Source: Akkermansia muciniphila (GTDB taxonomy: Bacteria; Verrucomicrobiota; Verrucomicrobiia; Verrucomicrobiales; Akkermansiaceae). From it: a stretch of DNA of 33,767 nucleotides. Under the pieces are notes generated by a model that searched no databases, was not told the origin of the DNA, and worked only from the letters and a program-made list of their open reading frames with translations. Position 1 is the stretch's first letter. The number at the start of each line of letters is the position of its first letter. The stretch covers positions 1 to 33,767 of the forward strand of contig CAMAQB010000036.1 of assembly GCA_945860285.1 (NCBI GenBank). Direction: 5' to 3'. Below, piece after piece: positions 1 through 16,870 of the stretch. Position numbers and translations under genes: made by a program.

Positions 1-186
1 ATCGACCAATGGTTGCGGGCTCGGCTGCGTTCCATACTGCGCAAGCGGCGTGGCGGCAGAGGCCGTGGACGGGGAAGAGATCACCATCGATGGCCAAACC
101 GCTACTTCACCGGACTAGGGCTCTTTTGCCTGCTGGAAGCCAAAGTCACGGAAATCACCAGTCTCCGAAAAGGAGCAAACCACTAA
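1..186 (+). CDS. ltrA: Group II intron reverse transcriptase/maturase, C-terminal fragment
   Basis: Only the last 61 codons are in the window, in frame 1, ending at TAA 184-186; the start lies upstream of base 1. The fragment has the W-L-R-x-R-L-R-x-I-L-R-K-R block, an Arg/Gly-rich stretch (RGGRGRGRGRD), the conserved RWPNRYF segment and a GLGLFCLLEAK tail. These belong to the maturase (X) domain and C-terminus of bacterial group II intron-encoded proteins. The full protein (usually about 420-600 aa) reverse-transcribes the intron and aids its splicing. No endonuclease (HNH) domain follows. That fits introns that retrohome without one, as class C introns do. The stop lies 5 nt before domain V, the usual arrangement of the intron's 3' end. 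Confidence 0.85.
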   Translation: MDQWLRARLRSILRKRRGGRGRGRGRDHHRWPNRYFTGLGLFCLLEAKVTEITSLRKGANH

Positions 187-191
187 CTGGA

Positions 192-225
192 GAGCCGGAT
201 GCGGGAGATCTGCAAGTCCGGTTCG
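192..225 (+). ncRNA. Group II intron domain V (catalytic hairpin)
   Basis: A 34-nt hairpin with a lower stem GAGCCGGA (192-199) against TCCGGTTC (217-224) and an upper stem GCGG/CTGC closing a GAGAT loop. The AGC catalytic triad is at 193-195. Domain V binds the metal ions that catalyse splicing and is the most conserved part of group II introns; its position just before domain VI and just after the maturase stop codon is canonical. Confidence 0.88.
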
Positions 226-268
226 GAGGGAGGGGCGGGGCAATACAATGCCCCGTTCCTACCTCTAT

Positions 269-603
269 CCTTGGAAATCCCTGCGAACGAAAGCGTAGGG
301 TGAAGGTAGGCGACCGAAGGTCAAAGGCAGGGAAGTTTCTCCGAAAGTTCCGGCGGGCGCAGGATTGTTTGGTCTTGGACATCCTTCCGGACTCACCGGC
401 TTTGTTTGCGAACGATAGCGTGGGGTGAAGGTAGGTCACGTCAGGGTGATCCGCGTCCGCCCCCCACCGGAACGCTCGGAGATCGTTCCCTGCCTTGGAA
501 ATCCCTGCGAACGAAAGCGTGGGGTGAAGGTAGATCACGTCAGGGTGAAATGCGGCCGCCCCCCACCGGAACGCTCGGAGAGCCCTCCCTGCCTTGATTG
601 CCC
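269..603. repeat. Intergenic hairpin-repeat cluster 1
   Basis: No gene lies here. The tract is built from two kinds of block. One is a hairpin block: 331-351, 469-489 and 568-588, each with two 9-base arms around a 3-base TCC or GGA loop. The other is a spacer containing GCGAACGAAAGCGTGGGGTG, GAAGGTAG and GTCAGGGTGA, seen near 284-311, 410-449 and 508-549. Bases 269-310 and 493-534 match at all but about one position. The whole is the reverse complement of cluster 2 at 16296-16870. Open frames across it (reading HPDVTYLHPTLSF on the minus strand) are repeat-encoded and not taken as genes. The last hairpin lies 16 nt beyond the stop of the neighbouring minus-strand gene and could act as its terminator, although there is no T-run. 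Confidence 0.85.
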
Positions 604-3600
604 TCAGATTTCTTCCTTGCTCATCCAGCGGAATGACACCACTTGAAAACGACGACCAAAATCCCCGGCTTTCCCCGGATTCACGGGGTTCACACCGGTG
701 CCGTCGGCGCGGATCGGAGCGGGGTTGCGCTGGACAATCGCCTCGCACCAGGCCCGCGCGACAATACCGCCTTTGTCGTCCAAAGCATCGCCATAGGCCC
801 TGATGCGGAACGTATCGGACCGCGCGCTGAGCACCGGGCCGATGACCTGAAGCACATCCGCCTGGGTCAGATACCCCGGCAGTCCCCAGGCCTTGCTGTC
901 GGGTTTCAGTGTCTGCTCCAAACGCGTGGCATCCCTGAGGTTGTCGGGATGTTTGTAATCGGGCAGCGTCGCTTTGTTGTTCAGCGGATAGGCAGACCTG
1001 AATGCCTGGTTGAGGCCAACGGAGTCGATGGCAGCCTGCAAGGGACCCATGCGACCCGTTTCATCGTCGCGCAGCCGTCGATTGACAAAATCGGAGAGCG
1101 AGAGAAAGGGACCCCGCAATTTCACTTGTTTGACAATTTCCCGGGCGAAGGTTTTCACCTCGGCATCATTCAAAACCCGGTAGCCGTCCCAGGCATTCTG
1201 GTTGGCGGCTGCGAGAGTGCCGCTCCACTCGCTGCCGGATGGATTGAGCACACGAGGAAAGGAAATGGCACCGGCTTTCCCCATCAATCCTTTGGTCGAA
1301 CGCAACAGCGCCTCCCATGCCTCGGGCGAGGTGGAGTTCACATTGAAGGCGCCATCTAACAACAAATGACGCGCGGGCTGGTGAAGATCGGTCAGTTGGC
1401 TTGCGGAGATCGAGCGCGAATCCGGATTGAGGCGGATGCGGCCATTCGGCAGCGGGTTTTTCCCGGGATTGGCGAGGAACTTCTCCTTCGCGTAACGGTC
1501 GCCGGTGGAGAGGAAAAAATCATCCCACAGGGTGTGATTGAGTTCGTAAGAGAGGTCGAAGCACAGGTTGTCGGTGTTGGTGTAATCCTGATAGATCGAT
1601 CGACCCTGCCGCGCCCAGGCATCGTTGTCGGTCGATCGTTCGGCATCGCTCGACCAGCCGATGTTTGTGGCATCGAATCCGCCGCGCGATTTTTCCGTGG
1701 CGGTGGTCAACAACGGCGAGGTTCGGTTCAGGCCGGCCATTGGTCCGGAGGCGAGGCGGGGATCGACCAGCGAATTTCCGAAGGCATAGGAAGGCTGCCA
1801 GACAAACTCCGAAAACTTCGCATGCTGCAATTGTGCCAGCGAGACCACCCCCGTGCCCTTGCGGGGAATGTCGAACAGCACAATCCGCTCCCGACCTTCC
1901 TGGGGTGTGCCGAAGGGATTGCCATGATAGCGGCCATTGCGGTACACCGGCATCTGGTCGTTCCAGGACACCGACTGGTCATAGAGATCGCGGGTGTAGA
2001 TGCCGAAAAACCACGGCCCACCGGCGGACCCCGAAACCGGCAAGGTGCCGCCGACATTGTCCCACGGGTTGCGGGTTGCGTAGGCCGCGCGCGGATTCCA
2101 CGTCGCCAGTGGTGCCTCTTCAAAAAATGCCGTGCTCTTGAGCGGACCGGCGTTGGCGATGTTCGACGGATGTTCCTGGAACCAGCGCAGCCGCATGCCT
2201 TCCCTACTGCGCACGTCCGGCAGGATTGTCGGCTTGGGATTGAGCGTGGCCGTTTTCTCGACATTCTGCCAGGAACTCGCCCGCTGGACCAAGCGCGGTT
2301 CGCGCCCGCCGCCGTATTGGAAGGAACACGATACATAGGAAAACTGTGGCAGGTTGTCGAACTCATTGAACGTCACCGAAGTCCGCCCATCGAGCATCTT
2401 GGCAACGATGCGCTGGTCGTCGGCCTGGTTTCTCACGTAGTCCACTGCCGCGCTGAACTGGTAGCGCAGCGGGAAATAATTCACGTTCACCGCCTGACCG
2501 AAGGAGTTGACGAGTTCATTGCTGACCGCGATGCAGCGTCCGACGTCCGGCGGAACCTCGCAGCTCAACAAATTGTTAGCCAGATTTTTGGTGTCGTATT
2601 CCATCCCCTTGGCGACGGAAAAAACCAGACACTCGCCGGGTTCGAAAACCGTCTCGGGCACGGAGAAATAGTTCGACCCGACAAAAGCCTCCTTGAACGT
2701 CGCCGAGTTGACCAGGTCGCCATTGGGGAAACTGAGGTCATTGCCGCGGCCGTCGTTCCACCACACGCCGGGACCGGTGCCGGTAAACGGTCCCCATTGG
2801 TAGGTTTCGAGCGTTTCGTGCCGGCCATTGCCCTGCATCATGACCAGGATCGGTTTCATCCTGATGCGGGCGTTGTAGGGATTCCACAAAACGACCCGCG
2901 GATACACGTGACGCCGGTACTGATAGAGTCCGTTGGTCACTTGCGGATTGAGGTAATAACTGTAGGTCCACTGCGTTGTCGCCTCGCAAATGATCGGCGC
3001 GAGACTCGACAAGCTGTAGTTCGCGATACTCGCCGGTTTGTAGTTCGCCGAAGCCACCTCCGCGCTGGTATTGATCTTCGGTGTGACTTCGGCTTTGGGT
3101 TCCACCGATGCCACCGGCGCGTCGGTTTTCATGGGAACACCGGCGGAAAGGCCCGCCCATTCGCGGATCAATGCAAAACGCGGCGAGGTGGTCTTGTGCC
3201 GGGTGCTCACCCAATCGATGCCCTCCATTGCGGCGACCGCGGCGTTGGCAGGCCCGACGAGATTGTCCGCGTCCTTCAATCCTGGTGAAACCACCGCGCC
3301 CGCATTCGTTAGGTCGGGAATGGAAGTTTTCGATTCGATGAAAGCGGTCAGGTCCCTTTTCAAGCGACCCTCGCGAACATTGCAGAACACACCGCGCGAA
3401 TGGGTGGTGATGTTGTGAAACGCCGGTCCCGCGACATCATTTCCCACATGGCCGAGCAACTCCAATTGCTGCTGGGAAACGACCCTGGCCCGGTCCGAAT
3501 TCGCGATCGAATTTCCGCCCAGCACGGCGGCGGCATCGGTCTCCTGCGAATTGAGCAAGGCGAAATATCCGCCGTCGCCGGGCGCATTGGGATCGGGTTT

Positions 3601-16295: not shown

Positions 16296-16870
16296 CGCAG
16301 ATTCTCCCAGGTGGGGAAGGATCTCCGCGCGTTCCGGTGGGGGACGGACTCGGATCACCCTAACATGACCTACCTTCACCCGACGCCTTCGTTCGCAAAC
16401 AAAGCGGGTGAGTCAGGTAGAAACATCGTGAACAATGTATGCTGCCCCCACCGGAACTTTCGGAGAAAGTTCCCTGCCTGAAAGGCATCAAAAGGGAAGG
16501 CTCTCCGAGCGTTCCGGTGGGGGACGGACTCGGATCACCCTAACGTAATCTACCTTCACCCCACGTTCTCGTTCGCCAACAACGCCGGTGAGTCAGGAAG
16601 GATGATCGAGAGTTATGAATCCTTCCCAAAAGGCAATGTTCACGGCGCTGTTGCCTGATCTTTCGCAAAAACCCGCGTCCGGCGGAATGCCGAACGCAGC
16701 ATGCGGGACGCAGGCGCTCCCCGGGGGGAAATTTCCCTGCCTTTGACCTTCGGGCATCCCACATTCATCCCACGCTCACGTTCGCAAAGAAAGCCGGTGA
16801 GTCAGGAAGGATGATGACCCGTCAACCATCCTGCCCCGACCGGATCGCCAGGGACAGCGATCCCTGCCTT
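16296..16870. repeat. Intergenic hairpin-repeat cluster 2 (inverted relative to cluster 1)
   Basis: The same repeat family as at 269-603, in opposite orientation. Hairpin blocks lie at 16315-16335, 16453-16473, 16495-16515, a shortened palindrome GGGAAATTTCCC at 16726-16737, and 16842-16863. Each is followed or preceded by CCCTGCC(T/C)TT or its complement. Between them is the spacer GGATCACCCTAAC, TACCTTCACCC, then GTTCGCAAA/GTTCGCCAA, and GGTGAGTCAGGAAGGATG. The copies differ in detail, including a divergent insert at 16600-16725 with its own GCGTCC/GGACGC stem. Frames such as DHPNMTYLHPTPSFANK come from the repeat and are not genes. Confidence 0.85.
16453..16473. repeat. Perfect hairpin copy of the repeat family
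   Basis: GGAACTTTC (16453-16461), loop GGA, GAAAGTTCC (16465-16473): a 9-bp perfect stem with a three-base loop, followed by CTGCC. It is the cleanest example of the hairpin that recurs in both repeat clusters. Confidence 0.85.

Follow-up and report, generated by a model that had tools for sequence, protein, structure and literature searches.

The window (the whole 33,767-nt stretch of Akkermansia muciniphila DNA analysed here, which starts at the first base of contig C36) opens with the 3' end of a group II intron that runs directly into a dispersed repeat, raising the question of what this intron recognises as its landing site. The coordinates of the intron end and of the repeat copies in the window are listed below, together with the EBS1/IBS1 pairs of related introns.

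Table. Features of the window (positions in nt) and EBS1/IBS1 pairs read in related introns
Feature	Position	Strand	Remarks
C-terminal end of IEP	1..186	+	61 codons + stop; open at contig edge
Intron domains V and VI to 3' end	190..268	+	RF00029, 52.5 bits, E 1e-7, full model
Presumed branch-point A, domain VI	261	+	Unpaired A opposite GAGGGAGG, 7 nt before 3' end
CCTT, first 4 nt of 3' exon and last 4 nt of repeat unit	269..272	+	
3' exon running into next, partial repeat unit	269..309	+	98% identical to 493-533
Intact BIME-like unit	324..496	+	Inverted REP ends AAGGCAGGG...CCCTGCCTT
REP hairpin upstream of insertion point	469..489	+	8 pairs + 1 mismatch
CTG (spacer/IBS1)	490..492	+	In occupied copies, intron lies between bases matching 492 and 493
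Second, partial repeat unit	506..596	+	Hairpin 568-588, CTG 589-591; 90% identical to 407-497
Further repeat copy	16306..16479	-	83% identity to 325-498
Further partial copy	16493..16604	-	89% identity; reads CCCTTTTGATG at insertion point
Further partial copy	16758..16844	-	79% identity
EBS1/IBS1, G006			GACT/AGTC
EBS1/IBS1, G038			GACT/AGTC
EBS1/IBS1, L157			GTAG/CTAC
EBS1/IBS1, L182			GGAT/ATCC
EBS1/IBS1, L159			CGTT/AATG, one G-T

Window 1-268 is a group II intron 3' end, consisting of a protein tail and domains V-VI. The translated tail shares 63% identity over 56 aa (E 7e-22) with the C-terminal end of a complete IEP, namely the group II intron reverse transcriptase/maturase of G006, a same-genus relative that supplied both a complete intron and a complete IEP; the tail alone gave no match in Pfam and NCBIfam profile searches. 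At gathering scores, RF00029 is the only Rfam family found in the window, and its match terminates at T268, the base at which an earlier note on this DNA had placed the intron end. The branch point proposed there, A261, coincides with the unpaired A of domain VI, whose role as branch point we infer from the sequence. The intron ends in AT, in line with the AY expected at a group II 3' end. An intron end after CCTT instead of T268 was considered and rejected, as the 3' exons of relatives differ past the same domain VI and intron-free repeats carry CCTT themselves. From base 269 onward, the sequence (CCTTGGAAATCCCTGCG...) belongs to the repeat that recurs at 493, as the note had stated. In the intact copy, 469-489 reads GGAACGCTCGGAGATCGTTCC and is followed by CTG, which agrees with the hairpin plus CTG described in the note, but the 9-bp stem given there turned out to be eight pairs plus one C-T mismatch. 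Since base 1 of the window is also base 1 of its contig, the 5' exon of this copy is unreadable; the lack of the remaining intron is most likely due to the assembly breaking off within a multi-copy element.

Searching the genome for sister copies, as the earlier note had suggested, revealed four intron 3' ends of the same RF00029 family, on contigs C36 (the window), C114, C134 and C97, the latter three each near a contig end, like that of C36. Over the shared part, these three match the window copy at 98-100% identity. The intron terminates with CTAT in three of the copies and with CTAG in C97, which thus ends in AG. In all four, CCTT directly follows the intron and the flanks then diverge; since CCTT occurs at a frequency of 0.0047 when both strands of the window are counted, the chance of finding it four times out of four is ~5e-10. 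Of 61 intron-free repeat right-ends, 10 share 18 identical nt with the 3' exon of C134 (CCTTTTGATTGCGACATT) and three with that of C36, one of these three being the neighbouring copy in the window.

The 5' ends were sought with the complete G006 intron (5' end at L065:1969; IEP with 395 bits to TIGR04416). Two were found, at C138:6050 and C123:8272, the five other matches of this search having E values of at least 0.48. Compared to the GTGYG that begins group II introns, C123 reads GTGCG and C138 reads GTACG, with one change. A junction pattern search gave 33 matches against 13 for a control pattern, mostly unrelated; it included TTCCCTGGTGCG at C123 and missed C138 with its GTACG. The dispersed repeat supplies both 5' exons, which end with GGAACGCTAGGGACAGCGATCC-CTG in C138 and GGAACGCTCGGAGAGCCTTCC-CTG in C123 directly before the intron and which, once aligned to the window copy, both stop at the base matching window 492. 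In two of two cases, the sister 5' exon thus ends as expected, with the hairpin plus CTG and at the corresponding repeat base, and both 5' exons together with all four 3' exons place the insertion between CTG and CCTT, three bases past the hairpin of a dispersed repeat. Altogether, the six junctions read correspond to one nucleotide of the repeat, hairpin-CTG|CCTT. The TIGR04416 profile had no match in the whole assembly, so that the body of the IEP was not found, which fits the same collapse of a multi-copy intron at contig ends.

It might be argued that the intron inserted only once, long ago, and was then copied along with the repeat by amplification or recombination instead of repeated retrohoming; the near identity of the 3' ends and the capacity of repeats to recombine would suit this. 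However, beyond CCTT the four 3' flanks soon become dissimilar, and neither the hairpin nor the left half of the repeat is the same in the two 5' exons, so that the intron copies sit in different repeat copies. A single insertion is therefore quite improbable, and the differing flanks point to separate insertions.

Several other traces of the intron were observed in the genome. Retrotransposition normally leaves 3' ends, whereas C123:8272-8298 (L106) holds an unusual 5'-end-only fragment of ~26 nt, in place after the REP and followed by unrelated sequence. At C9:43633-43678 (L038), a perfect 20-bp palindrome is built from intron domain VI: its 5' arm is the exact complement of its 3' arm, whereas the native arms of domain VI are only 82% complementary. 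It keeps the native loop ATACAA, is followed by CCTT, and has the appearance of an intron cDNA that folded back and primed itself. Moreover, degenerate remnants of the intron 3' end are present at C14:11312 (L107) and C58:13946 (L134), with the flanks TATCCCTG and CGATCCTTTGATGCC, respectively, the latter again resembling the repeat edge.

The repeat unit is ~173 bp long and occurs in dispersed and tandem copies. A search with window 1-600 gave 93 matches in the genome, part of which fall on the intron itself or on the opposite arm. From the fetched genome stretches, we gathered 63 repeat right-ends, a lower bound for the genome, after dropping 19 of 82 BLAST rows that were short or did not reach the right end. 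Except for two, these right-ends are free of the intron, and among the 61 intron-free ones CCTT stands at the insertion point in 48 and CTG|CCTT in 38. The inverted arms of the intact unit, 321-364 and 456-499, are 77% complementary. In addition, four copies, namely window 16493-16604 (minus strand), C129:7175, C35:12510 and C120:630, lack GCC exactly at the insertion point and read CCCTTTTGAT, perhaps by slippage between CCT repeats, or perhaps as scars.

On its own, the window hairpin is modestly stable (DNA fold -4.7 kcal/mol, z -1.3, with 18 of 200 shuffles as good), and in this genome the repeat hairpin is weak (z -1.0 to -1.7). Across 31 distinct members of the hairpin family, picked by sequence similarity alone after dropping 3 of 29 rows (those of L240, which duplicate L233), 78.9% of the cells are paired, compared to 67.8% (sd 1.5) in column shuffles, a level reached by none of 2000. 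In the same 31 members, with kinship uncontrolled, neither double-change pairs (6; reached by 734 of 2000 column shuffles) nor further pair types (17; reached by 274 of 2000) rose above the shuffles. As a query, the repeat unit matches 8 of 57 genomes, the own one included. In G009, of the same genus, the repeat has decayed to ~70% identity, and in G015, G016, G021 and G028, from other genera of the family, the match covers only the terminal 27-41 nt. The end that is conserved folds into a hairpin with GGA in the loop, whereas its arms vary (GACCGCTC/GAGCGGTC, GACCTTTC/GAAAGGTC, GACGGTTC/GAACCGTC and GAACGCTC/GATCGTTC).

The organisation of the repeat is that of a REP/BIME with its RAYT, a short palindrome present in many dispersed copies, inverted pairs and tandem arrays, with a RAYT gene between inverted hairpins. 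In the own genome, the 158-aa product of C160:381-857 scores 74 bits with the RAYT model NF047646, just below the curated cut-off of 80, and its gene sits between inverted hairpins of the repeat. An ORF on contig C1 of G015, flanked by two inverted copies of the hairpin, scores 73 bits with the same model, again just below the cut-off, and matches TnpArep (PDB 4er8) with an E value of 3.5e-4 and Pfam Y1_Tnp weakly (E 0.01-0.025). The two proteins share 59% identity over the whole length of the C160 protein; the CCTGCC hairpin tails face the RAYT gene in C160 and point outward in G015. The genome has 19 NF047646 matches in total, and flanking by the repeat is shown for C160; around its 16 PF01797 matches, flanks of up to 1.5 kb hold only short, chance-level matches to the repeat. 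The own-genome repeat differs from canonical REPs at the foot of the hairpin, where the tetranucleotides GTAG/GTGG or CGTC are absent and CACC or GGCAG stands instead, yet RAYT subclasses with atypical structures are reported (PMC6006769), so the missing motif is no ground for exclusion, and we use the label REP-type.

This organisation also bears on whether the repeat might carry integron attC sites, which would make the intron one of the known group IIC-attC introns (PMC7923331). The tandem arrays, spaced ~182-184 bp in the genome, would be in keeping with that. However, neither RYYYAAC nor GTTRRRY occurs on either strand of 269-600, the repeat ends are AAGGCAGG/CCTGCCTT, and the gene between inverted hairpins is a RAYT, all of which makes attC sites hardly credible. 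The resemblance to IIC-attC introns lies in a IIC intron located next to a mobile-element hairpin that serves a different enzyme; the difference is that the attC core motifs are lacking here and that the linked enzyme is RAYT, an HUH transposase, not an integron integrase.

We assign the intron to class C (IIC-type), as the earlier note had done, with the class carried over from the IEP and EBS1 of its relatives. The IEP of G006 has the Pfam domains RVT_1 and GIIM only, with no endonuclease domain, and among solved structures it is nearest to the IIC reverse transcriptases (GsI-IIC RT 217 bits, E. rectale 204), followed by 6me0 (162) and LtrA (148). A stem-loop lies directly upstream of the insertion point in C123, C138, G006 and the intron L182 (see below), the stems of the own genome being weak. 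In the relatives, a 9-nt loop between GRCGAGCCT and [AT]GGCGAAGYC carries EBS1 at loop positions 3-6, and pairing read by hand joins all four nucleotides of EBS1 and IBS1 in five of eight relatives (Table); the fit is poor in the other three, with 3/4 in G042 and 2/4 in L156 and G052. Two candidate intron 5' ends exist in four of the eight (G042, L157, L159 and L182), and the one taken lies 164-178 nt upstream of the EBS1 loop, as in G006. L151 is the same intron as that of G006, and L164 has the loop but no 5' end. As EBS1 pairs fully with IBS1 in these five relatives, the window lineage is predicted to carry the EBS1 CAGG. By analogy, the corresponding loop of the own intron should lie between GGCGAGCCT and TGGCGAAGCC and contain CAGG.

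Class C introns such as B.h.I1, E. rectale and GsI-IIC reportedly insert after intrinsic terminators (Robart et al. 2007). The present intron is similar to these in its IIC-type reverse transcriptase without an endonuclease domain (in the G006 relative), the short EBS1-IBS1 pairing predicted for it and the hairpin just upstream, whereas this hairpin ends a dispersed RAYT-linked repeat without a T-tract. The IBS1 differs as well, being CCTG, AGTC or ATCC in the introns studied here, compared to a TTTC-like sequence in the E. rectale structure. The repeat might still be an intrinsic terminator, and the insertions ordinary terminator targeting, since published descriptions place class C insertions immediately past terminators (PMC8919778, PMC4424553) and 12 of the 63 repeat copies have at least five T in the 8 nt after the stem. 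However, the remaining 51 lack such a T-rich tail, a terminator scan of window 180-700 found none at the repeat, the 5' exons end in CCCTG, AGTC and ATCC, and the hairpin forms the terminus of a RAYT-linked unit with inverted ends. Terminator targeting thus appears improbable.

Related introns in other hosts also follow palindromic repeats. The G006 intron follows AAAGCGGCAGCAGGCTGCCGCAGTC, another palindromic repeat, which has one other copy in the G006 assembly, none in G009 and 21 matches in G015; 19 of these cover the last 31-55 nt of the G006 5' exon and two an earlier part. All nine G015 rows inspected continue GCAGTC-CAAGG, and the 3' exon of the G006 intron begins with CA. In Methylotuvimicrobium buryatense 5G, a related intron (L182) interrupts a CGTC-type repeat after the 5' exon CGTCATTCCGCCAGGGATTGGCGGAATCC. 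This repeat shares the CGTC tag and the CCA tail with CGTC REPs, most of which are described as ending in CCA (PMC3733652). Its 5' exon has at least 39 further matches (149 first-look candidates, 40 of them scored); eleven other copies were fetched, of which ten were caught by the pattern (L285 was not), and all ten continue with A. At L287, the identical 25-nt palindrome is joined to the first 37 nt of the 3' exon of the intron, and judging from this arrangement the locus reads as an empty site. In both hosts, the query stopped at the insertion point, so the matches end there by construction, and the sequence beyond was read separately. Brevibacillus panacihumi copies, considered as a terminator control, were dropped as no clear intron 5' end was readable. 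Altogether, related introns lie 2-4 nt beyond the hairpin in three different repeat families, from hosts of two bacterial groups (Verrucomicrobia-like bacteria and a gammaproteobacterium).

Taken together, it is highly probable that the insertion sites of this class C intron are REP-type elements, namely the hairpins at the ends of a RAYT-linked dispersed repeat. We propose that the intron RNP would bind the REP hairpin in single-stranded DNA, by analogy with the E. rectale IIC structure, in which the RNP holds a DNA stem-loop followed by a short spacer, IBS1 and IBS3 (PMC10190682). A REP extruded on single-stranded DNA would offer the shape of a IIC target, with CCTG as IBS1 and C as IBS3, which may pair with the predicted EBS1 CAGG and with EBS3, respectively. 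The intron RNA would then reverse-splice into the DNA and be copied by its own reverse transcriptase. Because the endonuclease domain is absent, priming of the cDNA would occur at the replication fork, as introns without this domain are thought to use replication-fork primers (PMC4424553). Insertion into REPs, described as largely intergenic (PMC6006769), would for that reason cost the host little, and the spread of REPs driven by RAYT would renew the targets and keep supplying landing pads.

What can be contested is not the junctions but their specificity. The intron might take any stable hairpin with a matching IBS1, and REPs might be hit merely as common hairpins, with no special link to REP or RAYT. 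The IIC structure, which recognises a stem and a 4-nt IBS1 (PMC10190682), argues for this, as do the hairpins that precede the introns of G038, G042 and L159 and the finding that hosts have the intron family in common but differ in their repeat families. By contrast, the six junctions all map to the same base of a single repeat family, and repeats are likewise present at the introns of two other hosts. Moreover, EBS1 fits the local repeat in both G006 and M. buryatense, which would be expected of introns that adapt to the repeat their host carries. We consider such a general taste for hairpins nearly an even possibility, and its odds overlap those of the REP-targeting explanation. A broader version of REP targeting, which we put forward with some hesitation and rate as a little doubtful, holds that a branch of class C in at least two phyla has specialised in REP hairpins as a further target type, with its EBS1 re-tuned to whichever REP family a host carries; RAYT and the ribozyme would read the same single-stranded hairpin, and the REPs spread by RAYT would serve as landing pads of the intron. 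Three cases do not suffice to distinguish specialisation in REPs from a preference for abundant hairpins of any kind.

The printed accounts list terminators, attC or similar inverted repeats as class C targets (PMC4424553, PMC8919778, PMC3522654, PMC7923331, PMC3240598), and a 2015 review names three target types of bacterial group II introns, namely homing sites, terminators and attC (PMC4424553). For group II introns at REPs, the accessible literature, with its poor coverage of subscription papers, contained one direct match, and earlier reports may exist. This match is a table line giving a group II intron of Pseudomonas putida KT2440 at REPs in two of nine copies, where it is neither classed nor mapped to the base (PMC1525189). 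The same source describes insertion sequences (ISPpu9, ISPpu10, IS1397 and others) that prefer REPs as landing sites; these are DNA transposons, whereas the window element is a retroelement. Our data suggest that REP hairpins are a landing site beyond those usually described for class C. REPs may reach high copy numbers, and as their spread is attributed to a transposase of their own, they would form a renewable target for an intron. The locus also offers a testable system, in which one hairpin is possibly recognised by two unrelated mobile machineries acting on single-stranded DNA. M. buryatense is a named cultured strain with a clear empty site, and the re-tuning of EBS1 to local repeats can be read straight from genomes.

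Further features were observed among the related introns. The introns of L156 (a Chthoniobacterales MAG) and L159 (a gammaproteobacterial MAG) also follow hairpins, with the arms ACAGCC..GGCTGT and TTCCCAAGC..GCTTGGGAA, respectively. In M. buryatense, the intron reverse transcriptase (L182:2410-5885) is split by two opposite-strand ORFs that by eye resemble IS transposases, so that this copy is probably inactive in cis. In addition, intron ends and pieces of domain I lie too close together for an IEP at G038:C227, G042:C122, G056:C105 and G005:C179, which suggests ORF-less introns in several relatives.
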